Below are positions 5,293 through 55,944 of a stretch of DNA of 64,000 nt, in pieces. A model generated the notes under the pieces. The model did not search any database and was not told the DNA's origin. It was given only the letters and a program-made list of their open reading frames with translations. The first letter of the stretch is position 1; every line of letters begins with the position of its first letter. Source of the stretch: a virus; IMG/VR virus record IMGVR_UViG_3300020034_000007, positions 16,909 through 80,908 of that record. One strand, given 5' to 3'. The position numbers and the translations under genes are program-made.

Positions 5293-5801
5293 TAGAGGAT
5301 TCCACCTTCAATTGCAGCCTGAATACTCATAGCCAAGCTGTTCAACAATGTTGCGGCATCAGTCTCATTAAGTCCAACAACAGGACGAGCGGGTACGACA
5401 CCACGTGCACCCGACTGAGCTGTATTGAACTTAGCTTGAAGTACTGGATCACCAGTAGGCTCTGGTGTCTGAAACGTCACACCAGAAGGATCCATCGTCA
5501 TAGTACCTGAAGCATTGACGATGTAATCCTCTAATCCACCTGACCGATGAAGAATCGGACCTGATCCATACTGCTGGCGAAGGCGATCTGCAATCGTTAC
5601 CGGTGACAACGGAGCCCAAGGTCCGGATACATCATCACCCTCACCGGAGAACCTTATAGCGGCTCTTTCGGATAGGTGATGCTTAGCTTCACCCTGCATC
5701 CAGAACGCTAGAGAGGCTGAATCAATAGCACGATCAAGAGCAGTAAGTACTTTAGTTACTCCTAGATCTTCAGCTTCCGAGGACCATAGAAAACCTGTCA
5801 T
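5292..5801 (-). CDS. Virion morphogenesis / tail completion protein (Phage_tail_S, gpG-like)
   Basis: 169 residues. The layout matches the phage virion morphogenesis family: a helical N-terminus, then a GPWAPLSPVT-like segment, then a HRSGGLED motif, and near the C-terminus ARPVVGL. These are the hallmark segments of Mu gpG / P2 gpS-like proteins that complete the head-tail interface. The stop overlaps the next gene's start, indicating coupling. Confidence is high for the family and moderate for the precise assembly step. Confidence 0.8.
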   Translation of the reverse strand: MTGFLWSSEAEDLGVTKVLTALDRAIDSASLAFWMQGEAKHHLSERAAIRFSGEGDDVSGPWAPLSPVTIADRLRQQYGSGPILHRSGGLEDYIVNASGTMTMDPSGVTFQTPEPTGDPVLQAKFNTAQSGARGVVPARPVVGLNETDAATLLNSLAMSIQAAIEGGIL

Positions 5802-7408
5802 GACCAGCTAGCCCCCTCTCGGACGTGCCTTGTTGCCGTCACCCAGGCACTGCCATCCCAAACCTTGACAGTATCACTTCCATAAGCTAGAACCAAACTA
5901 TCCACTAAGCCAGTGTTATCAATCAGTATCTTCTGGCTTATTAAAACTTGATTCTGAATATCAGCTAGTCCGGCAAGATCTGTAATAATTCGACTGTACT
6001 CTTTGATAACCAAATCAGTTATACCAGCAGAATCAGTAATCGTAATCTGGTGATTTACAGCCTGGCCAATATTGTCAGTTAATCCAGCATTATCTGTATT
6101 TATTTGCGTACCGGCACCTGATGAAATCTGAGAAACGAGATCACTAGAGCCAGTACTGTCAATAAGCACACGCGCCACAGCTGACGTTTGGGATATCATG
6201 TCGGTTGAACCAGATGTATCAGTAGAAACTCGAGTAGCATTCACAGTCTGACCTGTAATGTCAGCAGCGCCAGCCGAGTCAGTAAACGTTTGCGTATAAG
6301 AATTTACCCCAGACTGAATTATATTATCAGTCAGTCCAGCCGAATCAGTCTCAATATCAGAATAAACAACTGAATAATTAATATCCTGATCTGTAGATCC
6401 AGTATCATCGCTAATAATACGAATTACAGTCTGAGCTACAACAGACAGATCAGTAAGTCCCGTACTATCAACAATCGTTCGAGCTGTAGCATCTACCTGA
6501 GACGTAGTATCAATCAGGCCCGCACTGTCGATGATAGTGCGTGCGTAGTTTGTAGCACTCACAAGTGCATCCGTTATACCAGCTAAATCAATAACAGACC
6601 GCATCGCCGACGACATCCGCGAGGGTACGTCAGTAAGACCGACGCTGTCTATAACTGGGCGAATATAAGCAGAAGTTTGTGAAGATATATCAGTGAGTCC
6701 ACCGCTATCCGTAGCCGGTCGTCCGTAGGAAGCTGTCTGTGCTGATACATCTGTAGTACCACTGCTATCAATGTTAGTCTGAGTATAACCAGTACCGCCG
6801 CCGCTGACGGTGTAGGTGATGACGATGCCGACGACGGCCTGCGAGGTTGACGAACCGGTGCACGACGTGGCCGCGTTCGACGCGAGTGTCTGCGCGCCGA
6901 CCGCGCACGACACCTTCGTGCCCGTGTTCGTCGTGACGGCGTCGGTGCCGAGCTCGGTGTAGCCACCGGACAGCGTCAAGTCCGCGAGCGTCCCCGACGA
7001 CGACGCACCGAACGCAGCGTAGGCCCGGTCCGTCGACGACGCCTGCGTGCCCGTGGGGCCGACCGGGAGGGATGTGGTCGCGCCGCTGCCCGCGGTCGCG
7101 CTCGTGTCGAACGTGAGCGTCCCGGCTTCCTCGGTGATCCACCCGCACGTCGGGCCGGCGATCGGGATGGTGAAGTTAGTCTCGCCGGCACTCGTGCGGC
7201 GGAACACGTAGATCGCCGAGTTGGTGTCCTTCTCAGCGTCCCTCGTCCACCCGGTCAGAGTCCCTGGGGCGGTGCCGCCGAGGAAGTTGTCGGAGTTGAG
7301 GAACAGCAGGATCGTGTTCCCGGTGGTGGTGGCGCCGGCGAACGCCGCCAGGACTGTCGTGGGCGCCGTAGCCGTGCCGGTGGAGAACGACGCCGGCGAC
7401 TGCACCAT
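5798..7408 (-). CDS. Repeat-containing appendage protein with GC-rich N-terminal domain
   Basis: 536 residues in three parts. Residues 1-~205 form a Thr/Gly/Ser-rich beta domain resembling lectin-like domains of phage surface proteins. Residues ~210-510 are about 15 degenerate repeats of ~20 residues, each beginning D-S-(A/T)-G-(L/S)-T-D and ending in a short hydrophobic strand. The C-terminus has paired Trp motifs (VWDGSAW, GASW) seen in actinophage virion decorations. The DNA for the first part (6790-7400) is strikingly GC-rich compared with the AT-richer repeats, pointing to domain acquisition. Likely a head or neck fibre; the exact location is unknown. Confidence 0.7.
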   Translation of the reverse strand: MVQSPASFSTGTATAPTTVLAAFAGATTTGNTILLFLNSDNFLGGTAPGTLTGWTRDAEKDTNSAIYVFRRTSAGETNFTIPIAGPTCGWITEEAGTLTFDTSATAGSGATTSLPVGPTGTQASSTDRAYAAFGASSSGTLADLTLSGGYTELGTDAVTTNTGTKVSCAVGAQTLASNAATSCTGSSTSQAVVGIVITYTVSGGGTGYTQTNIDSSGTTDVSAQTASYGRPATDSGGLTDISSQTSAYIRPVIDSVGLTDVPSRMSSAMRSVIDLAGITDALVSATNYARTIIDSAGLIDTTSQVDATARTIVDSTGLTDLSVVAQTVIRIISDDTGSTDQDINYSVVYSDIETDSAGLTDNIIQSGVNSYTQTFTDSAGAADITGQTVNATRVSTDTSGSTDMISQTSAVARVLIDSTGSSDLVSQISSGAGTQINTDNAGLTDNIGQAVNHQITITDSAGITDLVIKEYSRIITDLAGLADIQNQVLISQKILIDNTGLVDSLVLAYGSDTVKVWDGSAWVTATRHVREGASWS

Positions 7409-14689: not shown

Positions 14690-16382
14690 TTTCCGCCTGC
14701 GCCATCTCGCCCTCAAGTATCTGCGAGAATCGCGCCTTAAACTCCTCAGCATTGGGAAGGTAGTCTGTACCTAGAGCTGTGACATCACGAGCCCATCCGT
14801 CCAACCGTGCGTAAAGCTGATTGGTACGCTGAGCTGCATTCACAATTCCCTGAGAAGCAAAGGCATCTTCCATGCGTCGCTTGAATCCAAAATTAACTCT
14901 CATGTCAGGACCATATCGATCTTCACGATAGGCATTCTCTACCTGGCCATTGACGCGCTTGAGAATCTCATTGCGAATGTCGGTCATCTGCGCGTTGCTA
15001 GCCTTGCCGTTCTTTGACGGCGCTGGCACAGGCTTGGTGGGATCAGCATTTGGATCTGCGTTAGGGTCAGCATTTGGATCAGGCTGAGGAGCCAGCGTCT
15101 GCTGAACTTCACTAATCGTCAGTCCAGCCATCTCGCCTAGCTGCTCGGTATCGAATTTTATCTTATCCTTACCAATAAGCGCCTGTAGAATCATCTGCAG
15201 CATCATAGCGTTAGCATTATCAAGCTTGTTGAACTTGATCCTTATCTTAGGTGGGTTAGCACCAGGGTAGTTAAACTTAGCCATCGGTGCCAGGATATAC
15301 TTGTCGATGTACTGTGCGCGATCTGCATTCAATGCGTTCAACATCCACAGATACATCTGCATATGGCCGACGCCGAGGTTATAAGAACCAACATCAGCTG
15401 TTTTCATCAGCAGAACAGGAGTAAAGATGGCCAATGAAATCTCTTCATCCAGTCGCTGCATATAGCGCTCGAAATCTGCGCCACGCATCTGTGCTTCCAA
15501 ATATTGCATGTCGTAATCAAAGTACCCACGGCCTGCACTATCCTGCTCACGGTCAGCAGGAAGAACCACGACAGAACGATTTCGCAGCTGCATAAGCTGA
15601 GCCAGCATAAACTCCGAGGAGTTCATACTCGAACCGTCTGGCAAGTCTACAGTCTCACCGAAGGGTGCACGCCCTACCGGAGTCGGCTCGCCGAATCGCT
15701 CATAGTACCTGTTGGAATACAGATGCATAAGCATCGAGAAGAAGTAAGAAGTGTAAGCAGACTTGAGCAGCTTCTTGCCATAGTAATTTCCGTTCTCCAT
15801 GAGAATAGAAAACCAGAACGAGTTCTCTGGCGGAATCGGGCGAGGCCAGCCGAACTGAATGATACCATCATACACTGGGATCTTCGGTGGAACATTCCCA
15901 GGAGGCGCCCAACCGTCGACCTCTTTCCAATTAACCGCACAAGTCTCCGGAATGAGGTCCTTAATCTTCGTAAGGACCACAGCCCTGCCGTCGACGTCAT
16001 TCTCCCACTGAAGTACATTCGGAGAATAGCCGGCCCAGTGCGCCTGTGACATTGCGCGATTCAGCTGGGTCCAGATATTTTCAAGCTGCTCAGTACAGAG
16101 GTCACGAAGCTTCTTGTTATCACACTCAATCGTCCAGTTGGACTGATGTAGCATAAAACTCAGAACCGCCAGGGATGAATTCACCTGGTAGTGCTGGGTC
16201 ATCGTGCGGTAATCCGCAAGGGTGAGCTTCTCTAAATCGAACTGAACAATGCCGCCGCCGGGCAGCTGCAGGAAGTGATTGTACCTCTCTCGACCACTCC
16301 AGTTACCGAACTTTTCACCAAGCTTCGGTGGAGCTGTCTTGACGTTCTGTATAGGATTACCATGATGGTCAAGAAGAGGCAC
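14679..16382 (-). CDS. Portal protein
   Basis: About 567 residues from GTG 16382, preferred because AGGAG lies six bases upstream; an upstream TTG at 16427 would add 15 residues and has poor spacing. The body has portal-like alternation of helices and strands, with MTQHYQVNSSLAVLSFML early, GRAPFGETVDLP in the middle, and a C-terminal Pro/Asp-repeat linker (PDPNADPNADPNADP). The protein forms the dodecameric channel at the capsid vertex. It overlaps the terminase stop by 14 nt and is flanked by terminase and protease. Confidence 0.85.
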   Translation of the reverse strand: MPLLDHHGNPIQNVKTAPPKLGEKFGNWSGRERYNHFLQLPGGGIVQFDLEKLTLADYRTMTQHYQVNSSLAVLSFMLHQSNWTIECDNKKLRDLCTEQLENIWTQLNRAMSQAHWAGYSPNVLQWENDVDGRAVVLTKIKDLIPETCAVNWKEVDGWAPPGNVPPKIPVYDGIIQFGWPRPIPPENSFWFSILMENGNYYGKKLLKSAYTSYFFSMLMHLYSNRYYERFGEPTPVGRAPFGETVDLPDGSSMNSSEFMLAQLMQLRNRSVVVLPADREQDSAGRGYFDYDMQYLEAQMRGADFERYMQRLDEEISLAIFTPVLLMKTADVGSYNLGVGHMQMYLWMLNALNADRAQYIDKYILAPMAKFNYPGANPPKIRIKFNKLDNANAMMLQMILQALIGKDKIKFDTEQLGEMAGLTISEVQQTLAPQPDPNADPNADPNADPTKPVPAPSKNGKASNAQMTDIRNEILKRVNGQVENAYREDRYGPDMRVNFGFKRRMEDAFASQGIVNAAQRTNQLYARLDGWARDVTALGTDYLPNAEEFKARFSQILEGEMAQAENGH

Positions 16383-19290
16383 GATTGCTCCTGTCAGTTC
16401 GGAGATGACTCGGGAAGTTAACGCCAAACCTCTCGCCCGCTGACTGCGCTGGAGCCTTCAGTCCACCACTGCCAGCCTTGCGTACCTGTGCGATTAGCTC
16501 TGCGAAACCTTCGCTGACACCTTCGGTATGCTGACTAGTATCACGTCCTCCGTACCCGGAGTCCAGTGATGACCGCAACCCACGCCGGTATGAACGATCT
16601 CCAATCAAGTTAGAAACAACACCTGCTAATGCATCCGCTACGTCCTTTGATCCCTTAAGTGGATGATCTACCTTGCGACCATCAGTAGAAAGTTCCATCA
16701 ACTCCTTGATGACGATCTTGACAGCTGTATCATCACCCTTGTTAATAAACGTCATATACGGAGGAAACTCTAAACGCTCCTCATAGATTGCATCACGCAA
16801 ATCCTCGTAAGCAATCATGTTCTTGTCTACAGATAGATCATCTACCCAGAACTTCTTCTTGCGAAGTTGTTGCTTTGTATCCTGCGACTGGAAACCATCC
16901 ATCGATATCTTCTTGAGACGGAATCCAAACTCATCACGAAGTCTATAAATGACACGTCGCACATCACCAAAGAAGATTTCCGTACCCGGCATTGCTTTCA
17001 GTCTACCGAGGAAATCGATAACAATGAGTGGCTTTAGCTCACCATCAACCTCTGTCAATTCAGCAACGTGACCCATGACAATTCCCAGCGCATCCCCTTC
17101 GGAAGAATACGCATAGTCGATATGCATATTGCGCTTGCGTGGATCATCGTGCCCACGGAACCAATCTTCGAATTCCAACACCGAGGGATTAATGCCTACC
17201 GGAGAAACCTCACCGTGTCGCTCTATCCATCGTTCCTCGCATAGCTCGATCTTGTCCACCAGTGAAATGAACGGATCACTCACCGCTGGTGGAATACCAG
17301 CTAGGTCACGCAGTGCCTTCTCTGGATTATTTTCAAAACTCTTCTGAAACATTGTCGGAATCTCCAACAGTGTCTCAATTTTACCGGGCGCCAACATTGC
17401 CCCAACCATCTTAGGGATAATCTGACGACGCTTGAAATCGTAATAGAATGAATTACGAGTACCATCATCTGCTGTATAACGCGCCCACCCCAACGACTCC
17501 CACAGAGTCATACGGCAAGTATAAGCATTCGGATCGGTAGTAAATTCAGCAAACTTCTTGGACGCAAATCCATTGGCCTTCTTCATCTGACCAATACAAA
17601 TCAGCAATCCTCTATCTTCGAACCGCGAGAAAATCCTTCCATGGATCGTGTCGTAGCCTACCTCAGCATAATCCTTATCCTTTGTTTGCTTGTGAGAATC
17701 CATCTCGTCTAGAATCCCACCAAGGATGTTATAACCTTCGAACGTTGTTTCAGATGAGTCACCAGGAAGAATCCAAATATCCTTCTGGGGAAATCGAATC
17801 TGCTTAGTGAACTTCTCGTCATATGGAGCATTCTCAATAAACCAAACAGAGTGCTTAATACGAGCGAAAATGTCACCGAAGATAACTTCACGAGCATTTG
17901 TCTCGGATGTCGACATCTGCATGAATGCAATACGTGACCCAGGAAGCAGGCTGAAGTAATCCTGCGGATCATTCAAGCAGAGCACCCAGTGCACCATATA
18001 AGGAATAGCGATCGAAGCTAAAGTCGTATTATGCGTAACTATAAAGTCTTTGGTCACATAGAGCTGATCTAATGCATCTACCTTAATACAGCGACCTGGG
18101 CCACGGTCAATCTTTTCAACCTTAACTATCGATCTCGCTGGTCGCTGATTAGTTCTAGGACTCCAATTAGCGACTTTGCGAGGTAGACTAAAGGGGCACT
18201 CCTGATCCATATTCAGATGGACCTGATACTCCATAACTCCTCTACGGTCGAACTTCGTTACAGTGCAATACCCACCGAGAGAACGAACTAACTCTGCTAC
18301 ATCATCAGCAAGTTGTCTAGAACTTGTAGAGTACACTTGAGTATTTTTGCCGAAAGCCGATCCGTCATTATCCATCAAACCACGTAGCAATTCCCAGCGA
18401 TCCTGAATAGAAGCGCGCAAATAAATCTCGGGTATAAACTTCTCGCAAGAAGATTTACCATATAATTCCAGTGCCTCTAGCGTATTCAGAATTGGGTTAG
18501 AATTCAACCTTCGCAGAGTGCCGTCAGCCTTTATCGTAAACTTCAGATACCCTCCATCTGTTAAATGAACAGCATTTTTTCTTAGGAGTTCTTCAAGTCT
18601 ATCAGCATTCCATCTATCCTGCGTGCTAAACGAAATACTTCTCCGTGTCATTCCACCATTAGCCAACAAGGCACCTAGAGCCCAAGGATGAATTGGAAGT
18701 TCACCCTGATACTCATATTCTACAGGAAGTACAATTGGAATTCGATACTTGTAGTTACTACCGGCAAACTGAAGTTGTTGTCGACTTAAGTACTCCGTGG
18801 TTACAACTTGAGACTTAAACTGCCCGTATGAACTCTTGTAACTGACTTTCCAAAGATGATCGGCACCTGCGTCTACCCAAGTACCATCCTTAAAGGAGAG
18901 TCTGTAATATTGAATATCTTCGTTATCAAAAACACCAAGAACTTGTGTTGCCTTTCCATCGCTTCCTATTACAGAATCACCAACTCTGAGTGCTCGATTT
19001 TCTACCCACCCGGTCGGTGTTAAGATTAATTCTTCCGGACGCAAATTCTTGCCGATACCAATAGCACCCGTAAAGATAGCACGCTGTACCTGAGCAATAC
19101 GATAAGTACTTACATCCTTGCCGAAGATTTCAACGAGAGCCTGTCGCACGCCAGGTCGAATCTTGGACGCAATATCCAGGTAACCTACACCGAGAAACTC
19201 TTCGATGGTCGCCGGCCGTTGCCAAAACTCGGGATGATCCTTGAGCCACTGAAGCTCGTAGGCAGTTCTGACTGGATCAAACTCGGTCAT
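16369..19290 (-). CDS. terL: Terminase large subunit precursor containing an intein
   Basis: 973-residue precursor. Residues 75-81 (GAIGIGK) and 422-423 (TT) form the Walker A P-loop of the packaging ATPase, but are separated by a 340-residue intein (82-421). After splicing the mature enzyme would be 633 residues. Downstream segments match TerL: LDEMDS (Walker B-like, GGILDEMDS), DPFISL, and the nuclease-type MHIDYAYSSEGDALG with acidic residues. The enzyme translocates and cuts phage DNA at the portal. Unspliced protein would be inactive, since the P-loop is broken. AAAGGAG is 11 nt before the ATG. Confidence 0.92.
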   Translation of the reverse strand: MTEFDPVRTAYELQWLKDHPEFWQRPATIEEFLGVGYLDIASKIRPGVRQALVEIFGKDVSTYRIAQVQRAIFTGAIGIGKNLRPEELILTPTGWVENRALRVGDSVIGSDGKATQVLGVFDNEDIQYYRLSFKDGTWVDAGADHLWKVSYKSSYGQFKSQVVTTEYLSRQQLQFAGSNYKYRIPIVLPVEYEYQGELPIHPWALGALLANGGMTRRSISFSTQDRWNADRLEELLRKNAVHLTDGGYLKFTIKADGTLRRLNSNPILNTLEALELYGKSSCEKFIPEIYLRASIQDRWELLRGLMDNDGSAFGKNTQVYSTSSRQLADDVAELVRSLGGYCTVTKFDRRGVMEYQVHLNMDQECPFSLPRKVANWSPRTNQRPARSIVKVEKIDRGPGRCIKVDALDQLYVTKDFIVTHNTTLASIAIPYMVHWVLCLNDPQDYFSLLPGSRIAFMQMSTSETNAREVIFGDIFARIKHSVWFIENAPYDEKFTKQIRFPQKDIWILPGDSSETTFEGYNILGGILDEMDSHKQTKDKDYAEVGYDTIHGRIFSRFEDRGLLICIGQMKKANGFASKKFAEFTTDPNAYTCRMTLWESLGWARYTADDGTRNSFYYDFKRRQIIPKMVGAMLAPGKIETLLEIPTMFQKSFENNPEKALRDLAGIPPAVSDPFISLVDKIELCEERWIERHGEVSPVGINPSVLEFEDWFRGHDDPRKRNMHIDYAYSSEGDALGIVMGHVAELTEVDGELKPLIVIDFLGRLKAMPGTEIFFGDVRRVIYRLRDEFGFRLKKISMDGFQSQDTKQQLRKKKFWVDDLSVDKNMIAYEDLRDAIYEERLEFPPYMTFINKGDDTAVKIVIKELMELSTDGRKVDHPLKGSKDVADALAGVVSNLIGDRSYRRGLRSSLDSGYGGRDTSQHTEGVSEGFAELIAQVRKAGSGGLKAPAQSAGERFGVNFPSHLRTDRSNRASS
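18028..19047 (-). other. Class 3-type intein inside TerL P-loop
   Basis: 340 residues. The N-terminal block (NLRPEELILTPTGW, RVGDSVIGSDG) matches intein block A, but residue 1 is Asn instead of the usual Cys or Ser. Trp66 (ADHLWKV), Cys320 (GRCIKVD) and the Thr after Asn340 (VTHN|T) give the W-C-T triplet that defines class 3 inteins, in which the block F Cys is the nucleophile. A LAGLIDADG-type endonuclease domain is present: LGALLANGG (~residue 124) and LLRGLMDNDGS (~220). The first motif has Asn where the catalytic Asp belongs. Confidence 0.88.
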
Positions 19291-21691: not shown

Positions 21692-22504
21692 TTGAGCGAA
21701 GAACTGGCTAACGCTATTGCCAAAAGGTTCTTGGCTCGGAGAGATGTAAAAGCCGTTCAGTACAGCAATGGCGCATACTCACCGATCCGCGAACCGTGGA
21801 CACGCGAAGATCTCGATAATCACCTCGCTGGCACAAGGACATTCGGCCACTATCTGATTAATCCAGAAGATCGATGCAAACTACTTTGCTTTGACGTCGA
21901 CCTGGAAAAGGATGGTGTGCTACCATGGGATCCAGAGTGTAGTACCTGGTTCACTGTAGCCGAAGAAAAAGACGCCAATGGTTCTGTTGTTCCCACCTCG
22001 GGTCTTCGTGGTGCCTGGCATGACAGATCTCATCCGGGGCGTATCTGGATGAAGACTCAATTTAAGCTCATGGCGAACATCCTTGCTACCGGAATCAAAG
22101 ACCACTTAGGCATCGATGTAGCTGTCGCCTATTCGGGCAATAAGGGCGTCCACGTCTACGGCTTCTTTGGTAAGGAAATCGATTCTGACGCTGCCCGTGA
22201 AGGGGCGTTAATCGTACTAGACTCAATCGGTGAATTCCACGCCAGTCGCGGTCAGGTCTTCTTCAAGCATAACGATGAAAACTACATCACAGGCTTTCCA
22301 AATCTTAGTATTGAAATATACCCCAAGCAAGATTCCATAGCTAACAAAGATCTCGGCAACCTTCTTAGACTTCCCCTTGGTCGTAATCAGAAGTCCCCAC
22401 AGGACCCTACGTTCTTTGTTGACATGAGCACCGGGGCAGATCAGTTCGGTCCCGTTGATGCCCTCAAGGCGATGTCGCCTGGTTACGATGCTTGGACGGC
22501 CTAG
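21692..22504 (+). CDS. Archaeo-eukaryotic-type (AEP) primase
   Basis: 270 residues, TTG start with CTGGGGAG eight bases upstream. Catalytic-core motifs of AEP primase-polymerases are in order: FDVD (Asp68, Asp70), SGNKGVHV (Ser148 to His154) and a later acidic residue in SIEIYPKQ (Glu208). LLRLPLGRNQ follows, as in LigD-like and phage AEPs. It would make primers for phage replication, and the next gene is a CHC2/helicase protein. It is the first gene of a rightward replication operon. Confidence 0.85.
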   Translation: MSEELANAIAKRFLARRDVKAVQYSNGAYSPIREPWTREDLDNHLAGTRTFGHYLINPEDRCKLLCFDVDLEKDGVLPWDPECSTWFTVAEEKDANGSVVPTSGLRGAWHDRSHPGRIWMKTQFKLMANILATGIKDHLGIDVAVAYSGNKGVHVYGFFGKEIDSDAAREGALIVLDSIGEFHASRGQVFFKHNDENYITGFPNLSIEIYPKQDSIANKDLGNLLRLPLGRNQKSPQDPTFFVDMSTGADQFGPVDALKAMSPGYDAWTA

Positions 22505-22506
22505 GA

Positions 22507-24330
22507 ATGACTGTACCTAATCTTGACAAATTTGAAGCTGCGATCGCTGCACGCCGTGCCGAGAAAGAGGCACGACAGGAGTTTCAAAGAATCAAGAAGG
22601 CTACAGCTGACCCTGACCTTGTTCCACAATTACAGTTTGAACGCAAGCCCGAAGATGACCTGATCGATCAGGCGCTAACCAACCTATCGATAGTTGAGGC
22701 GTACAATCGCTGGTGCGGCAAGATGAAGCCAGCTAAGCGCTCAGGTCAAACTGAAGGTGTCATGATCTCGTGCCCTATTCCGGGGCACAGAGACTCTAAT
22801 CCCAGTGCATGGGCCAATACCGAGAAGAATACCTGGTTCTGTGGAGCCTGTAATACCGGCGGTGACATCTACGATATTGCTGCTTACCACTTGAATCTGC
22901 CTGTACCTGGTTACAAAGAAGGTAAGCAGTTCCACGATCTTCGTAGGTCAATGGTTCAAGATCTTGGCTACGTCGTCCAGAGATCAGATGATATCAAGAT
23001 TCCGGATAACATCTACAAGCCAGCACCAGTAACAGAGATTATTGACAACTCGCCATCGATTGAAGAACTAGAAGCAGAGATTTTCCCTAGCCTTAACTGG
23101 CGTGATATTGTTCCAGAAGATAGCTTCATCTATCAGTATGTGAATGCCTGTTCGATAGATGATGCCGCAGAAGAATACCACTTCTGGAACGCTATGGTGG
23201 CAGTTGGTTTAGCTGTAGGTCGAGATGTAAGTCTCATGGACTTCAAGCCGGTCTATGGCAACCTGCTACTATGCCTACTTGGTAAGTCAGGTGACCGAAA
23301 GTCTCGATCTCAAGGACACCTTAAGACTTTACTGGAAATGGCTATACCATACGATTATTCTAGTGACGTCTCTAAAGGTATCAAACCAATTCAGGGTACA
23401 GCATCTGGTGAAGCCTTGATTCGTGGATTCTACCGCCCAATCTTTGACAGTATGAATCCAAAGATGGTTCTTGATTATTCAAGAATCCGTGGTCTGGTAG
23501 AGTTTCCAGAACTCTCTAGCCTTATTCATAGAACCGAAAGAATGGGCTCTACTCTTAAAGATATACTTCTTCAGTTCTCTGACGGAGATGATCGCATCTC
23601 GAATCACTCCATTACCAATGGAGAGAGTTTTGCCAAGCATTCGTTCGCATCAGTAATTACTACCACCCAGCCCGATTCACTGAAACATCTCATTAGCGAA
23701 GAAGATACTGGTAATGGTTTTCTGAATCGCTGGCTGTTTGCATCTGGTACACCAAAGAAAAAGATTGCAGTAGGTGGAGCAACTATCGATCTACTAGACG
23801 CAGGAGTCTCACTGCAGAATATCCACGGTCAACTGCCGCGCTCTGTGGGATGGAGCGAAAATGGACTCAAGGCTTTCTCGGACCACTTCTATACAGAGCT
23901 AGACGACATTGCTGACAAGAGTCCAATCCTTACGAGGTTGGATCTTCTCGAAAAGAAACTACTTTTATTGCTAGCAATAAACGAAAACCTTAATGAAATC
24001 GATGAGTCTACAGTAGAGTCAATGCTCAAGATGCACAGTTATCTGCTGAGTACATACGAGACAACAGCACGTAACACAGTACGACAGAGTATCAATGGCG
24101 AGATTTACAACGAACTCATCAGGCACATTCAGAGACTAACGCCAAAGATGCCCTTCGGGCCCACTAAGAAAAATATCAAAGACCGTCTAGCTCGTAAGAA
24201 TTATGATCCAGCAGTAGTTCAAAAGATGTTCGAATTACTTTCCAAAAATGATGATATACAAATTTCTAAGGGTGACGACAACAAGCCTGGTCCAAAAACC
24301 GATCACTTCAAGTGGATCGGAACTAGCTAA
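22507..24330 (+). CDS. Primase zinc-finger / helicase (DUF3987-like) protein
   Basis: 607 residues. Residues 89-115 form a CHC2-type zinc finger (Cys89, His94, Cys112, Cys115; FCGACNTGGD). Residues 259-266 (GKSGDRKS) are a P-loop, with helicase-like flanks of the DUF3987 type. It probably works with the AEP primase encoded just upstream to load on single-stranded DNA, unwind and prime. ATG 22507 has AGGA immediately before it; a TTG at 22492 overlapping the previous gene is an alternative. It ends a few bases into the convergent minus-strand gene. Confidence 0.8.
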   Translation: MTVPNLDKFEAAIAARRAEKEARQEFQRIKKATADPDLVPQLQFERKPEDDLIDQALTNLSIVEAYNRWCGKMKPAKRSGQTEGVMISCPIPGHRDSNPSAWANTEKNTWFCGACNTGGDIYDIAAYHLNLPVPGYKEGKQFHDLRRSMVQDLGYVVQRSDDIKIPDNIYKPAPVTEIIDNSPSIEELEAEIFPSLNWRDIVPEDSFIYQYVNACSIDDAAEEYHFWNAMVAVGLAVGRDVSLMDFKPVYGNLLLCLLGKSGDRKSRSQGHLKTLLEMAIPYDYSSDVSKGIKPIQGTASGEALIRGFYRPIFDSMNPKMVLDYSRIRGLVEFPELSSLIHRTERMGSTLKDILLQFSDGDDRISNHSITNGESFAKHSFASVITTTQPDSLKHLISEEDTGNGFLNRWLFASGTPKKKIAVGGATIDLLDAGVSLQNIHGQLPRSVGWSENGLKAFSDHFYTELDDIADKSPILTRLDLLEKKLLLLLAINENLNEIDESTVESMLKMHSYLLSTYETTARNTVRQSINGEIYNELIRHIQRLTPKMPFGPTKKNIKDRLARKNYDPAVVQKMFELLSKNDDIQISKGDDNKPGPKTDHFKWIGTS

Positions 24331-24533: not shown

Positions 24534-24728
24534 TTACCCCTCAAGGTGGATTGACCCACTCGTGAGAATATAACCCGCTAACCAGAGGCTTTCAAGCCTA
24601 GTGAATCCTGCCGTTTGAAACGACAGAAACGCCTCATGAACAGCTGCTACGCTATCGCCTAGAGGACTCTCGCCAAACTGCTGGCTCATCTCTTCAGCCT
24701 TGGCTCGGATCTCTTCCTCACTTGCCAT
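24534..24728 (-). CDS. Small hypothetical protein, helical
   Basis: 64 residues. The N-terminal half is Glu/Ala-rich and helical (EEEIRAKAEEMSQQFGE), the rest mixed hydrophobic (SLWLAGYILTSG). It overlaps the end of the preceding small gene by 11 nt and is followed by a 3-nt gap to the next. Probably expressed with the cluster. Unknown function. Confidence 0.62.
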   Translation of the reverse strand: MASEEEIRAKAEEMSQQFGESPLGDSVAAVHEAFLSFQTAGFTRLESLWLAGYILTSGSIHLEG

Positions 24729-24858
24729 TCTTCTTGTCCTCTCTTGCGGCCTTCTTCTCGTATCTATTCAGCCTTCTCTGTGCCTTTTTTAACTTTCTGT
24801 ACGAGTCTTTGGCAGCTTCTGCCTGTGGATCAGGATCAGGACCCCAGATTTGTGCCAT
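24718..24858 (-). CDS. Small Lys-rich hypothetical protein
   Basis: 46 residues from ATG 24858 with AGGAGGG seven bases upstream. A WGPDPDPQAEAAKDS start is followed by a very basic helical region (KLKKAQRRLNRYEKKAAR). Such tiny basic proteins are common in early phage regions; it may bind nucleic acid. Function unknown. Confidence 0.65.
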   Translation of the reverse strand: MAQIWGPDPDPQAEAAKDSYRKLKKAQRRLNRYEKKAAREDKKNGK

Positions 24859-24872
24859 CTGTGCATTCCCTC

Positions 24873-25121
24873 CTAGGTATGGATAGGTTTGGGCGCCGGT
24901 AGCTCCGCAGTGATCACCGTTCGGCCGGATAGGACGGCACCACGGCGTGCCGGATCGATCCATGAATGCCATTCCGTGCCGTCATTGCACTCATGCCAGT
25001 TCAGTGGGTGAGTCTTGCGCTTCATGCACCGAAGCCAGGCATGCTCTTGGTCGAAAGAGGTACAACGAACCTCATCCTTAAGCGGGGGGAGGCTTCTTTT
25101 CACTGATCCTACGCTTGACAC
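24873..25121 (-). CDS. Small hypothetical protein with Cys/His pattern
   Basis: 82 residues from GTG 25121, or 76 from GTG 25103, which has AGGA closely upstream. Cysteines and histidines in CTSFDQEHAWLRCMKRKTHPLNWHEC could bind zinc. It lies 6 nt downstream of the preceding gene. No recognised family; part of the small-gene minus cluster. Confidence 0.6.
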   Translation of the reverse strand: MSSVGSVKRSLPPLKDEVRCTSFDQEHAWLRCMKRKTHPLNWHECNDGTEWHSWIDPARRGAVLSGRTVITAELPAPKPIHT

Positions 25122-25902: not shown

Positions 25903-26093
25903 TACAAGTATTCCACCTTTCCTCGACCGATCGCATGAAAAGCACACAGATACATTTTACGAGTGTGCTTAACTTGGCCAGTTGTTGAATCAGTCTGCAA
26001 TAGAGTTAAGTATCCTACAATTGAACCTTTACACTTATCTTGCTCTCCAGTTCGGTGCCATCTACTGCGATGATAACACTGAAGATCACTCAT
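25902..26093 (-). CDS. Small Cys/His-containing protein
   Basis: 63 residues. Contains CYHRSRWHRTG and later CAFHAIGRG with spaced Cys and His that could form a zinc site. AAAAGG precedes the ATG, which overlaps the previous stop. It resembles small phage proteins that bind host transcription or translation factors only in general character; no function assigned. Confidence 0.62.
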   Translation of the reverse strand: MSDLQCYHRSRWHRTGEQDKCKGSIVGYLTLLQTDSTTGQVKHTRKMYLCAFHAIGRGKVEYL

Positions 26094-26527
26094 TACCTTT
26101 TCTTTCCGTGCATGAAGGCGCGCGTGTAGTTGTAATCCATCTTGCGAGCAACCAGGTCATCAGCATCGTGCCCTAGTGTCTTAATCGTTTCTAATAGCCT
26201 GATGATACAGTCGGCTAGCTCATAAGGCGCACCCTCAGGCTTAAGCGCGCCTGCCAGGATCTTATCTAGTGAGATAAGATACACATAGGTCGCATGACGA
26301 ACAGTCTCGCCCTTGATATACTTCTTTCCACCTGAGGTAAAGTCTTCCTTCACCTCATACCAAATTGAGGTTTCATCCTTGTCGAGCAACCGAGTCGCCT
26401 CGTAAGCCTCAGTGAGCTCCGTATGAGCCAATGCAATAGTGTCACCAAACGTTCTCGGGTTGTCATAGAAGCCCTGCTTACGAACGTAGTCGTAGAATTC
26501 GGTTGCTAGAGCGTCAAGTGGGCCCAT
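26093..26527 (-). CDS. MazG-like NTP pyrophosphohydrolase
   Basis: 144 residues from ATG 26527 with AGGAG ten bases upstream. It is all-helical, with the acidic signature of the family: HTELTEAYEATR early, then ELADCIIRLLETIKTLGHDADDL, where Glu and Asp residues bind Mg2+ for hydrolysis of nucleoside triphosphates. Phage MazG-like proteins tune (p)ppGpp or nucleotide pools during infection (known for the family, inferred here). Ends against the next small gene. Confidence 0.72.
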   Translation of the reverse strand: MGPLDALATEFYDYVRKQGFYDNPRTFGDTIALAHTELTEAYEATRLLDKDETSIWYEVKEDFTSGGKKYIKGETVRHATYVYLISLDKILAGALKPEGAPYELADCIIRLLETIKTLGHDADDLVARKMDYNYTRAFMHGKKR

Positions 26528-26532
26528 GAGAA

Positions 26533-26898
26533 TCATTCTCCTGCCTCGGGGTGTATGTACAGCCAGTCGGGATTCAGCAGCCACCTGTCACCAACGAAGT
26601 CAATATCACCAGCTGATAGGTACCTACCGAAGTTCTTGTTGCGAGTACCTCCCCATATGATATAGAATCCCGGACAGTTCCGAGTCCAGTGACGATAAGA
26701 AACATTACAGATAGAGCACTTAATTTGAGGACTCTCGGCCCGTAGTGAAACGGTATGATAGTAGACTGAACACTTAGAAACAGATCCTATGCCGGCGTCT
26801 AGAAAGTCTTTGTAGATGCTCTTGGGTACCTTTGGTGAGTCTAGAGTGATCCAGTTATCAGTACCGCGTTGTAGGTAACTCACGGTAGATTCTCCCAA
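26533..26898 (-). CDS. Tandem zinc-finger-like paralog 3
   Basis: 121 residues. Shares with the two genes to its right the order VP-x(n)-H-x(n)-CxxC-x(n)-W-T-x2-C-x-G: here Cys61, Cys64, Cys75 with NVSYRHWTRNCPG, then ID-F with a trailing Trp. The Cys set resembles a zinc knuckle. It overlaps the middle copy by 19 nt. Most diverged of the three; function unknown. Confidence 0.75.
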   Translation of the reverse strand: MGESTVSYLQRGTDNWITLDSPKVPKSIYKDFLDAGIGSVSKCSVYYHTVSLRAESPQIKCSICNVSYRHWTRNCPGFYIIWGGTRNKNFGRYLSAGDIDFVGDRWLLNPDWLYIHPEAGE

Positions 26899-27404
26899 AC
26901 GATATGAGTGCCATCCTCGTTAACACTTTCGTGATAGGTAGCTGCTCCTACTACAGTGAACGCCTCTTTTTGATTAGCTGCGATGGTATCTGCAACACAT
27001 TTCTCGATCCACGGCTTATCGAACCACCAGTCGCCATCCTTGAAATCCAGTCTCGAACCCTGAACCCATGTCTGGGTTGTATCATTTATCCAAGAATAAT
27101 AACCAGAGCAGTGAGTTGTCCAGCTGTCATAATACAATCCACACAGTAAACACTGATCGGTACCGATCTCCATAAAGTGATAGTGAGTCCAGACCAAATT
27201 CTCACTGCCGAACTCAGTATGAAGCAGAACATCAGCCGGCACTAGCGGGTCGTTAGAACGTATCCAGCTGTGGTGATCTAAGTCTTCATCAGTGTTGACC
27301 TTGTCGCCTAACGCTGCATTCATCTGCTCGATTACACTGGTAGTTTGGGCGGTCGCTGAATCTAATACTTCGAAAGATACCTTCAAATCTTTATAGTCGA
27401 CCAT
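26880..27404 (-). CDS. Tandem zinc-finger-like paralog 2
   Basis: 174 residues. Cys85, Cys88 and Cys99 (CLLCGLYYDSWTTHC) are preceded by WTHYHF and followed by a LDFKDGDWW segment. The same architecture is present in its two neighbours, so the three are probable tandem duplicates. Strong GAGAGGTTAGGG-type ribosome-binding site. Likely a small zinc protein acting on host proteins or nucleic acid (inference). Confidence 0.8.
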   Translation of the reverse strand: MVDYKDLKVSFEVLDSATAQTTSVIEQMNAALGDKVNTDEDLDHHSWIRSNDPLVPADVLLHTEFGSENLVWTHYHFMEIGTDQCLLCGLYYDSWTTHCSGYYSWINDTTQTWVQGSRLDFKDGDWWFDKPWIEKCVADTIAANQKEAFTVVGAATYHESVNEDGTHIVWENLP

Positions 27405-27987
27405 GACGCCCTAACCTCTCCTTGGCACTCAAGTACTGCTCGAGCGATATACCCGTACCTCTTGGTGAACTGTTAGCCAGGTGACTATTGGCGAGATTCT
27501 TCTCGGCGGCGACTAGTCTAGCCGCTTCTCTCCAGGCATCCTTGTTAGCCTTGATATACCTATCTAGGAACTGCGGCTCGACAAACCACTCGCCCGCGTG
27601 AAAGTCCACCTGATTATGCATGACGCAGTCGTTAACAGTTCTACCTGAAATCCAGTCACCACTACCTGGACAGCTGGTAGTCCAGGTATTCTTAAGCATG
27701 CCACACCAAAGACAGCCCGCCCCGCCTCTTTTAAGAAAGTGCCAGTGAGACCAGAGGTTCGGACTGTGAGAGCCAACCAGCTCATCACGGAGAGGCGCTG
27801 GAACCTTGTCACTAGCACAGTTAACCCAGCCAGCGTTAGCCTTTTGTCTGCCGTAGTGCTCCATAGCCCTGTTCAGTACACTGTAACCTGGATGCGTGTA
27901 GCGCGAGCCTGCCACGTCACTCCCCCAGAAGTAAGTTAACCTGCTTGCTATCGCGCGAATCATATCACGATAAACGCGCTCATGCAA
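27391..27987 (-). CDS. Tandem zinc-finger-like paralog 1
   Basis: 198 residues. Contains WSHWHF, then CLWCG (Cys92, Cys95), NTWTTSC (Cys106) and VDFHAGEW, the same ordered set as the next two genes. The C-terminal 50 residues are helical and basic. No clear ribosome-binding site before ATG 27987; the region is part of a 13-bp inverted repeat overlapping the first codons. Longest paralog. Unknown function. Confidence 0.78.
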   Translation of the reverse strand: MHERVYRDMIRAIASRLTYFWGSDVAGSRYTHPGYSVLNRAMEHYGRQKANAGWVNCASDKVPAPLRDELVGSHSPNLWSHWHFLKRGGAGCLWCGMLKNTWTTSCPGSGDWISGRTVNDCVMHNQVDFHAGEWFVEPQFLDRYIKANKDAWREAARLVAAEKNLANSHLANSSPRGTGISLEQYLSAKERLGRHGRL

Positions 27988-28013: not shown

Positions 28014-28739
28014 CTATTCCGGCGCTACTACTCCACCCGAAGGATCAGGATCCACCCGACCCGAAACTCCGAGATTCACAAACGGATTTACCTTGGCGAA
28101 CACCGCACACTCGCCCTCTTCTTTCAACAGCCGCTCGATACTTTCACCCTTAATCCAACCACTACCGTCCACACCCCAGCCTTTCCCCCAAGTATTATCC
28201 AACCGGATTAACTCCCCCTTGTGCTGATACGCCCCAGCTCCGATCGCATGGCCGCCAGAAAGCCCACCCGAGAGCGTAACGATCCCGTCGACACAGTCGA
28301 ACATCCCGGCGTACCAGTTGATCCCGAAGTTCACTGCACTGTGAGAACTAATCGCCAGACAGATCTCTTCTACAGTCGTCGCCCAGTAATACGACCCGAT
28401 CACACCCTTGTCTTTCAAGCCCTGAGCACTCCCTAGTACTGACGAGCCCTCGTAATCCCGACCTGGGTATTCGTCGTAATCCTTAGCAAGACTATACAAC
28501 CACTCCGCATTCTCCTGGCTCAGTTCTGGCTGAGGATCGTCCGGAAAACTGAGAACGGTCGTCCCCGAAAACCCTACACAGCCACCTTCACTCCCCTGAT
28601 TAAGCCAGGTAACTCGCTCTCGAGTAAAGTTCTCCGGAATAACTACCGGCAGCCCAAGCGCTCTAACTCGGTGATTCTCATTACGAGTATCCCACCGAGG
28701 AACGCGATCCAACGTCCTACCATTAACAAAGTCGGCCAT
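28014..28739 (-). CDS. Papain-like cysteine peptidase
   Basis: 241 residues. Papain-type order of catalytic residues: Gln48 and Cys54 in QGSEGGCVGFSG, His164 in SGGHAIGAG, Asn182 in LDNTWGKGWG, followed by the typical DGSGWI strand. Families C1/C39-type peptidases occur in phages and may modify host or phage proteins. A promoter lies just upstream on the same strand. The target is unknown, and it may be linked functionally to the zinc-finger paralogs encoded downstream (inference). Confidence 0.82.
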   Translation of the reverse strand: MADFVNGRTLDRVPRWDTRNENHRVRALGLPVVIPENFTRERVTWLNQGSEGGCVGFSGTTVLSFPDDPQPELSQENAEWLYSLAKDYDEYPGRDYEGSSVLGSAQGLKDKGVIGSYYWATTVEEICLAISSHSAVNFGINWYAGMFDCVDGIVTLSGGLSGGHAIGAGAYQHKGELIRLDNTWGKGWGVDGSGWIKGESIERLLKEEGECAVFAKVNPFVNLGVSGRVDPDPSGGVVAPE

Positions 28740-29348: not shown

Positions 29349-29487
29349 GTTTTTTTCGCATATGGTAGGTTACGTATTAATGTGTATGGCTTGCTAATTC
29401 GCCGGTCTGCTAGTAGGCATCCAGCAGACGACCTCTAGGTGCCTCTAGGCCCCGGAATCATTGGGCTAGAGGTATCTCGCTGACAAG

Positions 29488-29643
29488 CAAACAGCAGACG
29501 GTAAAAGAGAGGAGGAGGAAGAGCTGAATTTAAATCCTGTATTATTAAAATAGAATACCTATCAAGTATGACTATCATTATCTCCGCCAATGATGCCCTA
29601 TCACCTCGTCCTTGGGATGGGGTTCCTTAGTCTGCTGTTTGCT
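29488..29643. repeat. Inverted GTCTGCTGTTTGC elements
   Basis: The 13-mer GCAAACAGCAGAC near 29487 and its exact reverse complement GTCTGCTGTTTGC near 29631 face each other across an AT-rich stretch. A shorter GTCTGCT/AGCAGAC pair lies at about 29406-29431. Could be operators or origin-binding sites. Confidence 0.55.
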
Positions 29644-29844
29644 GATTCCCAATCAGACCTATCATATCCCCCTCTACTTATATATTAGTAGTAGTAGTAT
29701 AGTAGTAGGTTATATATACTCTATATAGAGAAGACAATTAGACAACATATCGCTGAAAGCTGCTTCTACTAGTATTGCATGGATGCCACCAATGATAGAT
29801 GCGGTGTCGGCTCATACGCTAGGTCCAAATGCTACTACCTTCTG

Positions 29845-29931
29845 GGAATTTTTCTGCGCACCGTTCGGTGGTTTAAGTCCTTAGTTATCCAGTCTGACCT
29901 CTCGGAATTTTTCTGCGCACCGAATGGTGGC
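29845..29931 (+). repeat. Direct repeat with embedded covarying hairpins
   Basis: A 19-bp core (GGAATTTTTCTGCGCACCG) occurs at 29845 and 29904, 59 nt apart. Each copy runs into a small palindrome (CACCGTTCGGTG, CACCGAATGGTG), whose stem is kept while the loop differs. This looks like repeated binding sites or RNA structures rather than chance. Confidence 0.65.
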
Positions 29932-30922
29932 TATAGCCTGCCACACCACCCCCCACCCAGAATTTAGACATACCCCTCCAGTCGTACATACCCCCCCCTA
30001 CACCTTGAATTCCATCTGTCCGATTTATTACGAATTTCGTTTATTATCGGTTCAGAACGATGTCATACCACCCAGAACTACCCACATAGGATGCCGATAG
30101 GGTGGCCTACGGGTACATACACCATCAGTCACCACATCAGTCATGCCACTACCCACCACATGCACCCCATTCAGAACGAATCACACTGAACTAGACATCA
30201 CCTATCACCACCACATACATGCATCAGAACGGGTGTGAATAGGCAAAGGTTACGAAGACCATGTTCCACACACACCCTAGACATCACATGCACACCCAGT
30301 CATATCCGTTCTTTGAATCATTCAAGAATCGATCAAATAGTATATTTAACGACTTAGTCAACGAGGTATCATTCTTTCAATTAACTAGACATACCTGCCT
30401 ACTAACACGGACAAACGACTTATACGTTCGTCTATATATCACGCCTAGATAACGGTCCAGTTTTCAATGGTAGATGTATACAGTCTAGCTCAAACACGGA
30501 CAAAACTACACATACTAACTACCACATATCCACCTATACCTACCCAATAGGCCTAGGCGCTAGCACTACACGCTAGGGTAGATTAGGCATCGCACCAATC
30601 GGAACGGGTTAGGCCACAACACACTAGGCCTAGCTACTAGGGCCGAATGCGTGTACGTTCATTGCATACCTACATAGCGACACGGGATACGGCCATCACG
30701 CTAGGTGGCACGTACCTATCCCATCCGCACACATAGGTGCGACCACGACTGATATGTCTGGCAATCCACCTATAGGCATGGCCGCCTAGCGATACGTAGA
30801 TTCGGACTCGATCGCACCTACGGGCTACCTACGCCACGCAATAGGAATAGGGATAGGCACACACACCCAGAAATTAGGGGTTGCCGAATTCTGGATCGCA
30901 TGATAGGGTTGCACTAGCAACA

Positions 30923-31080
30923 CGGACACCGACTCGGTCCTAGAAATCATAGGACTGGCCGTCCGGTAACACGGGCACCGACTCAAACCCAGTACATATG
31001 GGTGCGACTTGCCCGGCACGCTAGACCGGCCCATCCCGGGCACCGACTCAAACCCAGTACATATGGGTGCGACTTGCCCG
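30923..31080 (+). repeat. Three tandem structured 43-44 nt units
   Basis: Units at 30923-30965, 30972-31015 and 31037-31080. The last two are identical over 44 nt. Each has an outer helix (CGGGCA/TGCCCG in units 2 and 3, CGGAC/GTCCG in unit 1), the same internal CACCGACTC, and an inner hairpin whose stem sequence differs between unit 1 and the others but stays paired. Pairing maintained over changed bases supports functional RNA or a structured DNA site. Confidence 0.68.
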
Positions 31081-31563
31081 GGATGGTGCCGAAAACTAAA
31101 TACGCCTCACAATGGACTTACCCGGGGCGCAAAATGGGGTGAGTAGCGGCTGGAATCCACCATGGATGACTGCCCGAGTATTGCCAGAGTCCGGTATGCC
31201 GGACCGGTAGACGCTCGGAAAAGATCTGTGCAATGGCGCGCCGAAGACTGCGGAGAGTAACCAGACAGTGCGAACGTCCGATGTTATGTCCAGGCATACC
31301 TGGGAATTGGGCTACTAGGCGAATGGCTAGGGGATGCAGGCTCACATGATCGGAAAGGCCGAAAAGCTAGAAACAAAGCGATTCGAACCCTCACCCCGGT
31401 CATATGAGCCTGATACGCAGTCGAATGATCCACATCCAGCCTCATCAGGCCGTCATTCCAGGTATGTCCCTGGATAGCGTGATAGTGACTGGATGGGCAA
31501 TTCAGGTGTTAATTACCTGGGTCGCGCTCATTTGGACCAGACTTAGACGAGTTAGCTAGACCA

Positions 31564-31590
31564 GAACATCCCATAAGTTTGGGGATGTTC
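31564..31590. terminator. Hairpin before the rightward early operon
   Basis: Arms 31564-31572 and 31582-31590 pair over 9 bp around a 9-nt loop, 30 nt before a strong rightward promoter. It could isolate the early operon from upstream transcription. No T-run. Confidence 0.5.
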
Positions 31591-31620
31591 CTGTGATGCT
31601 AACTGACGGACAAACTAAGA

Positions 31621-31649
31621 TTGACAAGTCCGTAGACAGCTGGTAAAAT
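31621..31649 (+). promoter_or_regulatory. Strong sigma70-like promoter
   Basis: TTGACA (31621-31626), 17-nt spacer, TAAAAT (31644-31649). The leader runs about 40 nt to a CTGGGGAG ribosome-binding site and the first small gene. Near-consensus early promoter. Confidence 0.85.
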
Positions 31650-31693
31650 GAGCGCGTGCCCTGGTCATTCTCAAACCTGGGGAGATGATGGCA

Positions 31694-31792
31694 ATGACCT
31701 ACACCCTACCCCACCAGACTCCGGTGAGTCGTCCTGTGGTTTCGGGCACACCCGACAAGCCAGCCGAGATTCGAAAGCTGGCCGCACGATGA
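31694..31792 (+). CDS. Very small early protein
   Basis: 32 residues from ATG 31694, nine bases after GGGGAG; upstream in-frame ATGs at 31685 and 31688 are too close to the binding site. Pro/Thr/Arg-rich with no domain. First gene after a strong promoter and overlaps the next gene (ATGA). Small but well supported by promoter and ribosome-binding site. Confidence 0.55.
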   Translation: MTYTLPHQTPVSRPVVSGTPDKPAEIRKLAAR

Positions 31793-31905
31793 ACCAGTCG
31801 TGGCGAATCCACATGTTCTCAACCAACTACCACATGCTTCGCCGCCAAGGTGTATCAGCCTTTCTAGCCTTCGTGATCGCCCGAAGAGCCGTTCACCACT
31901 CCTGA
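31789..31905 (+). CDS. Very small early protein 2
   Basis: 38 residues, with start overlapping the previous stop (ATGA). Basic and hydrophobic: HMLRRQGVSAFLAFVIARR. May be membrane-associated. A second promoter begins immediately after its stop. Confidence 0.55.
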   Translation: MNQSWRIHMFSTNYHMLRRQGVSAFLAFVIARRAVHHS

Positions 31906-31909
31906 CCTG

Positions 31910-31938
31910 TTGTACAGGACTCATTATACTGGTATAGT
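31910..31938 (+). promoter_or_regulatory. Sigma70-like promoter
   Basis: TTGTAC (31910-31915), 17-nt spacer, TATAGT (31933-31938). Drives the gene set from 32060, with a leader of about 115 nt that contains short inverted repeats. Confidence 0.75.
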
Positions 31939-32059
31939 GGATCCTGTTCGGAGATCAGGTAGCAAGTAGCTGCGAGCACTAACGCTCTGTTGCGCTATGG
32001 TAGCCGGTCAAAACTACCTGACTCCGACTTACCAAGTGCCTACTAACTGGGGAGTAACC

Positions 32060-32296
32060 ATGGCACAGTCCGCACCTCGCACCCCTGGATCGCCCAGGCT
32101 GCGCTCCCGATCGTTCATCCAGTCACGCAACCCCGGCGTCAAGAGCTGGGCGCGCAACTCCGTTCCAGCCCGAACGCTCGCTGGTCCGGTGACTGTGCGC
32201 ATGGTTCAGCCTGTCGCAATTCAGCCCGGCACCGACCAGGCCGTCATGCGTGATTCATTCGAGTGGTACCGCCCGTACCGAAGGGGCGCACTGTGA
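32060..32296 (+). CDS. Small basic early protein
   Basis: 78 residues from ATG 32060 with GGGGAG five bases upstream. Arg/Ser/Pro-rich (RLRSRSFIQSRNPGVKSWAR), probably disordered or nucleic-acid binding. The stop overlaps the next start (TGATG). No family recognised. Confidence 0.65.
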   Translation: MAQSAPRTPGSPRLRSRSFIQSRNPGVKSWARNSVPARTLAGPVTVRMVQPVAIQPGTDQAVMRDSFEWYRPYRRGAL

Positions 32297-55386: not shown

Positions 55387-55944
55387 ATGCTCTTCGGATT
55401 CAGCGATCCAGAGGAAATGCAAGCCGCTATGGATCGCGCTGAAATGGAAAAGGACGAATTTCATCATAGCCTTGAGAGTATCTGGCTTGGTCTAACTGAT
55501 GATCAGCTACTTGTTCTCAGCTCTTACTTCCACTCGATCAGCCACAGTCATGATGGCATACTTCACCTGGCTATGTTGTCTGGTCGGCTCATGCAACGCC
55601 GTGCCGAGCGGATGAAGATCTGTGCACTCGATGGCAAGGATCACGAGGCCGAGCTAAAAGAGATGTCAGGCCAAGCCGGCAAACCAGATCTTCAGAAGAA
55701 GAAGCCTACACCTGAAGCTAGCCACCTTGATGATTGGGCTGAACCAGAGCAACAAAGTGGCGACCCAAGAGTCCTTAAGGCTCTTGAGCATGCAGATAAT
55801 ATGCGCAAGTGGAATCTGGAATACACTAACAGTGGTCTACTTGTTTGCTCTAAGTGTAATATGGAATACGCGAGTCTAGAAGATCGAATGGTTAAATCCC
55901 CTGACAACTGCCAGGGCTGTCATCATAAGGCCAAGTTCGGCTGA
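55387..55944 (+). CDS. Hypothetical zinc-ribbon protein
   Basis: 185 residues from ATG 55387 (AAGGATAAC upstream). The helical N-terminal two thirds include FHHSLESIWLGLTDDQLLVLSSYF; the C-terminus has VCSKCNMEY and CQGCHHK, a typical CxxC-x(n)-CxxC zinc ribbon. Start of the helicase operon; overlaps the next gene. Confidence 0.72.
   Translation: MLFGFSDPEEMQAAMDRAEMEKDEFHHSLESIWLGLTDDQLLVLSSYFHSISHSHDGILHLAMLSGRLMQRRAERMKICALDGKDHEAELKEMSGQAGKPDLQKKKPTPEASHLDDWAEPEQQSGDPRVLKALEHADNMRKWNLEYTNSGLLVCSKCNMEYASLEDRMVKSPDNCQGCHHKAKFG

Follow-up and report, generated by a model that had tools for sequence, protein, structure and literature searches.

The three tandem genes at positions 26533 to 27987 of the window are a triplicated, altered form of an existing, unnamed family of phage proteins. 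The window is the whole 64,000-nucleotide stretch that we analyzed, and comes from an IMG/VR virus record of 80.9 kb (IMGVR_UViG_3300020034_000007) whose virus we refer to as the source phage. We predict, with a probability of about 0.5, that the genes, triplicated in tandem in the source phage, encode small proteins that bind zinc and have an accessory role in phage DNA metabolism. A role in DNA metabolism is proposed because the neighbors of single-copy relatives lean to recombination and replication.

The source phage

The portal protein of the source phage is 38-50% identical to those of Rhodococcus, Gordonia, and Tsukamurella siphophages of the ReqiDocB7/TIN2/Chelms/Trogglehumper type, and its helicase and primase are 24-39% identical to those of the same siphophages. 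Trogglehumper, Reynauld, DocB7, and Mbo2 form one group of Rhodococcus phages that are predicted to be lytic (PMC13313380). The source phage has a WhiB-like gene, so an actinobacterial host fits. The replicative helicase/primase gene (22492..24330, plus strand), which has tblastn matches to the helicase/primase of ReqiDocB7, Trogglehumper, Orchid, and others, is convergent with the run that holds the trio and is a landmark common to the Rhodococcus and Gordonia phages of this type.

Other parts of the window have features of their own. The large terminase (16369-19290, minus strand) is 973 amino acids long, about 300 more than its relatives (664 amino acids in Trogglehumper). The excess is due to an insert that resembles an intein, carries a LAGLIDADG homing endonuclease domain (PF14528, E 1.1e-5), and splits the ATP-binding motif between GIGKN and TT. 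About 3 kb between leftward and rightward genes (29400-32200) has no long ORF; within it, a 45-nt sequence is directly repeated without mismatch (30972-31016 and 31037-31081), and a 31-nt sequence occurs at 29841 and again at 29900. ReqiDocB7 and GordTnk2 have similar gaps near the helicase. A putative structural protein of 536 amino acids (5798-7408, minus strand) consists mostly of degenerate DSAGLTDITSQ-type repeats and has no Pfam match. We also found that many right-arm genes of ReqiDocB7 (L041:7300-12540) are preceded by a near-identical sequence, visible as a repeated antisense frame (e.g., MPRMLPFWTRQTRS); the genes that follow this repeated intergenic element begin MRLDM or MRLEM, and the element is perhaps a promoter.

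The three genes and their run

The run starts with a papain-like cysteine peptidase gene (28014..28739, minus strand), a neighbor that the first-pass annotation had identified correctly: it matches PHROG 16701 “peptidase” (E 4.8e-34), and its tblastn matches include phage records named papain family cysteine protease. Copy 1 (P0003; 27391..27987, minus strand; 198 amino acids) follows 26 bases downstream and has its core domain at about residues 53-142; its TTG start is uncertain, with an alternative ATG at 27963. Copy 2 (P0002; 26880..27404, minus strand; 174 amino acids) was identified from the ORF list, BLASTP, and the family profile described below, and AGGAGAGG stands before its ATG start. 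Copy 3 (P0001; 26533..26898, minus strand; 121 amino acids as listed) was identified from the ORF list, BLASTP, and a leave-one-out profile, and is the most diverged of the three. As listed, copies 1 and 2 overlap by 14 bases and copies 2 and 3 by 19 bases.

Next downstream of copy 3 is a gene for a MazG-type pyrophosphatase (26093..26527, minus strand; PHROG 3301 pyrophosphatase, E 4.4e-24). Ribosome-binding sites suggest where these last two genes start. For copy 3 the more likely start is the GTG at 26883 (116 amino acids), which has GGGAG 8 bases upstream and forms a GTGA overlap with the stop of copy 2; the MazG-type gene appears to start at the ATG at 26527, 6 bases inside the end of copy 3. 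The peptidase, the three copies, and the pyrophosphatase form one coupled run of five genes. Two short ORFs that contain cysteine and histidine (24873-25121 and 24718-24972, minus strand; region 24534-25121) belong to the same leftward run; they are unrelated to the trio and have no PHROG match of note.

The three genes share common descent, as had been proposed. BLASTP E values for the three pairs are 1e-14, 9e-9, and 9e-5, and each copy scored against a profile of the other two gives 29.2, 53.5, or 44.6 bits, where the best of 1000 shuffles reaches 8.1 bits, or 22.8 bits with every cysteine and histidine fixed. Together these values rule out chance. Rather than falling into three unrelated known families, all three belong together.

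The copies are 22-28% identical in pairs, yet all of them retain the motif residues. The shared motif is W-x(7)-VP, a histidine (in HF, HF, and YH), C-x2-C-x6-W-T-x2-C-x-G, and DF...W, and the three-way alignment has 17 invariant columns. In copy 1 the residues are W54, VP62-63, H81/H83, C92-x2-C95-x6-W102-T103-x2-C106-P-G108, DF128-129, and W134; in copy 2 they are W47, VP55-56, H74/H76, C85-x2-C88-x6-W95-T96-x2-C99-x-G101, DF120-121, and W126. When the window is scanned in six frames with a loose regular expression, these three genes are the only open coding frames that contain the complete motif. The elements described earlier (VP, HF or YH, CxxC, WT-x2-C-x-G, and DF...W) are present in each copy, but the gap given as about seven residues is exactly six. 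We agree that this cysteine motif, present in all three, is probably metal-binding.

Searches with the trio

At family thresholds the three proteins have no match in Pfam, PHROGs, NCBIfam, PADLOC, or the PDB. A profile of the trio found no relative in viral and genome contig collections, and the 9 isolate relatives and 35 IMG/VR portal relatives searched with it, several of whose contigs are fragments, have no counterpart. Several candidates were rejected. ReqiDocB7 gp092, a weak match among the relatives, lacks the cysteine motif; when copies 1 and 2 were run against phages by tblastn, the sole match, in a Vibrio phage, looked like chance; and DNA patterns for CxxC-x6-WTxxC picked out nothing in viral contigs but an unrelated protein of marine phages and ORFs that are non-coding or unrelated. 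Within the window, a fourth weak family match (55792-55878, E 0.004) is a CxxC in an unrelated ORF in which the other features are absent. The description of the trio as an undescribed family thus stands insofar as no curated library contains it, but the trio belongs, as a remote branch, to a phage family whose members are deposited as hypothetical proteins.

A wider phage family

This family came to light through tblastn with the core of copy 2 (E<=10), which gave MalagasyRose gp60 and a protein of Burkholderia phage Bm1 at E 4-5. The two are homologs of each other and have the same C-x2-C-x10-C-P-G spacing and D[FY]...W tail as the trio. From them we assembled members from the Gordonia phages SCentae (gp23), Pupper (gp23), and Skog (gp41), the Mycobacterium phages Phrappuccino (gp98), Settecandela, and MalagasyRose, the Rhodococcus phage Trogglehumper (gp84), Brevundimonas phages (e.g., Gurke), phage Bm1, and 25 IMG/VR loci. 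The family motif is C-x2-C-x10-C-P-G...Y-x-G-x-L-D-[FY]...W. All annotated members are called “hypothetical protein,” and a search of the literature turned up no paper that describes them. Pseudomonas phage KPP25 was left out, as it has only a C-terminal tail in common with Bm1.

Among 84,980 bacterial and archaeal genomes we found no member, in a narrow test with one 9-residue pattern; this absence suggests that the family's phages may be non-integrating. One canonical family gene (L113:1490-3321, in a 10.9 kb record) lies beside a gene that by eye encodes a Zot/pI-like filamentous-phage assembly ATPase, a setting far from the usual tailed-phage context of these genes.

Only the first family members were chosen for their similarity to the trio, which was insignificant; these in turn brought in the later members, which makes a profile test of the link largely independent. 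An HMM built from 30 members, with window sequences left out, was searched against the 667 ORFs of the window and ranked copy 2 (E 5.8e-7) and copy 1 (E 1.2e-6) first; the next unrelated ORF scored 0.08 and copy 3 scored 0.087. For copies 1 and 2, 0 of 2000 shuffles reached the real score even when every C, H, G, P, and W stayed in place. For copy 3 the real score was reached by 6 of 2000 shuffles that preserved C and H, from which this copy alone does not stand apart. Comparison of the trio with the family in hhalign gave a probability of 95.9% (E 6e-9). Three cysteines, one aspartate, and one tryptophan are invariant in a joint alignment of 22 rows that includes all three copies. The spacing of the core cysteines is the same in every copy (copy 3 has R for the second T and keeps the T after W), and the trio has the [LIV]-D-[FY]-x(2-5)-W segment that lies about 20-30 residues past the third cysteine.

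To judge from these profile comparisons, copies 1 and 2, at least, belong to the wider phage family, and copy 3 is joined to it through them. We consider it very unlikely that the link is convergence on a short CxxC-CPG motif, with the trio an orphan family of the source phage. The domain is short, the closest pairwise matches (25-34% identical) were insignificant in the first search, and an unrelated phage protein with CxxCGLLHFCWTPxCAG illustrates that such motifs do arise. Convergence is at odds with E values near 1e-6 for two copies against an independently built profile, with the failure of shuffles that keep every C, H, G, P, and W of those copies to reach the real score, with the hhalign result, and with a DF/DY...W tail that aligns as well.

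Copy number and history

The family is present once in each of 34 other records (two of them duplicates and one more nearly identical) and three times in the source phage. Trogglehumper, which is related to the source phage, carries a single canonical copy at another genomic position; in the other tested relatives, several of them fragmentary contigs, no family copy was found. In the tree the trio forms one clade (92/87) with long branches, so the simplest history is duplication in the source lineage followed by fast divergence. The earlier idea of tandem expansion was right in spirit: it is specific to one lineage, and the copies diverge quickly.

Most canonical members (26 of 30) carry a first CxxC just upstream of the core; it is absent from all three copies. 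Since 4 of the 30 undoubted members also lack it, this pair is usual for the family and not defining. Comparison with the canonical members places its absence in the trio as a loss. The pair may be accessory, with the constant site formed by the three core cysteines and the conserved histidine.

High divergence, loss of the first CxxC, and absence from relatives might also be seen if the genes were decaying, functionless duplicates carried along in an accessory gene run. We regard this as highly improbable: the three reading frames are open and tightly overlapping, two of the three copies have plausible ribosome-binding sites, and the motif is intact in all three despite their low identity.

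Predicted function

We infer from the cysteine pattern that the three core cysteines and the upstream histidine form a zinc site. Two AlphaFold2 models had pLDDT of 46 and 58 and were not used; Foldseek found no fold match in the PDB.

Canonical family genes adjoin genes for a UvsX-like recombinase, RecT, an SbcC-like subunit, Sak4, an exonuclease, SNF2-type helicases, and a clamp loader, and the MalagasyRose gene adjoins DNA polymerase III and Cas4 exonuclease genes. Five recombination or replication families (UvsX, RecT, Sak4, exonuclease, and helicase) were located across 20 records; they occur within 2 kb of the family gene in 8 of these, where 2.0 are expected by chance (P 0.00035), but the families were picked after the neighbors had been seen and the true significance is lower. 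With two related records removed the count is 7 of 18 (P 0.00085). Phage early genes cluster anyway. No recombination gene adjoins the trio in the source phage. The peptidase next to it is not a regular partner of the family, since a PHROG 16701 peptidase is near the family gene in only 1 of 31 other records (L110).

In the mechanism that we favor, a small single-domain protein from the unnamed family was tandemly triplicated within one phage lineage. The invariant C-x2-C-x10-C and the conserved upstream histidine would bind one zinc ion and so hold the short domain together, and the trailing [LIV]-D-[FY]-x(2-5)-W segment would pack on it. The family would most likely act as a zinc-stabilized adaptor for UvsX, RecT, Sak4, an exonuclease, an SNF2-type helicase, or single-stranded DNA. 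In the source phage the copies would be made from one tightly coupled run with the papain-like peptidase and the MazG-type pyrophosphatase, and their divergence is as expected if each had taken on a separate partner.

The first-pass annotation had favored host interaction, a role that the analysis does not support: the only functional pointer, the neighbors of single-copy relatives, leans to DNA recombination and replication. The main rival reading, possible though clearly less probable, is still that the diverged copies bind host factors: each would be a zinc-stabilized binder of a different host factor in host takeover or counter-defense, retained and diversified because hosts vary. Such a role would suit the lineage-specific tandem triplication and long branches, the place of the short accessory run (with its peptidase and MazG-type enzyme) between replication genes and a gene-poor stretch, and the lack of a counterpart to the trio profile in the isolate and IMG/VR relatives searched. 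It fits poorly with the recombination and replication genes that adjoin family relatives in many phages, and PADLOC gives no match. A more specific and doubtful proposal is that a phage-specific zinc-domain family normally single beside recombination enzymes was triplicated in one actinophage lineage into three binders of different partners and, with the peptidase and the MazG-type enzyme, forms a new host-interaction or counter-defense cassette.

The Cys3-His pattern and the size of the proteins would also be compatible with zinc-finger-like, nucleic-acid-binding regulators that modulate transcription or translation of phage genes in cis or trans. One canonical member has a weak match to DUF4428 (PF14471, E 0.00095), which would agree with this. 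We think such a function unlikely: DUF4428 is matched neither by the trio nor by the remaining 22 of the 23 members, and the single match was not counted as membership; there is no HTH or known finger signature; and D and W, not basic residues, are abundant in the core.

The family context points to a role beside recombination enzymes that can be tested, and the three diverged copies provide a ready-made panel for finding the domain's binding partners. The analysis defines, with a sequence signature, a widespread unnamed family in phages of actinobacteria and proteobacteria that curated libraries have missed. Its interest is moderate, as small cysteine-rich phage proteins of no assigned function are common.

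Comparison with known families

Two PHROGs of unassigned function have weak matches to canonical members, PHROG 19813 to 5 of 23 (best E 0.00028) and PHROG 13483 to 1 of 23 (best E 0.0043); neither matches any of the trio's proteins in the window. A family that ends in CxxCGLLHFCWTPxCAGCGxxMDYN is apparently common in marine phages (L005, L012, L022, and about 15 other IMG/VR loci). Its CxxCG...WT-x2-C-x-G is spaced as in the trio, but unlike the trio it has DIQNIxxGTR before and CGxxMDYN after this core and lacks the histidine and the DF...W; we judged the likeness convergent and rejected these proteins as relatives.

The closest known system is the unnamed phage family itself, with the consensus H...CxxCxGGLxxCxxCGxxEGS[LP]TTDCPG...VYxGxLDFxxGxGW. 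Like it, the trio has C-x2-C-x10-C-[PS]-G spacing, T before the third cysteine, an upstream histidine, and [LIV]-D-[FY]-x(2-5)-W. Unlike it, the trio has neither the first CxxC nor the EGSLTTD consensus, in place of which it has W-T, and it adds a W...VP segment, longer N-terminal ends, and three tandem copies where the family has one.
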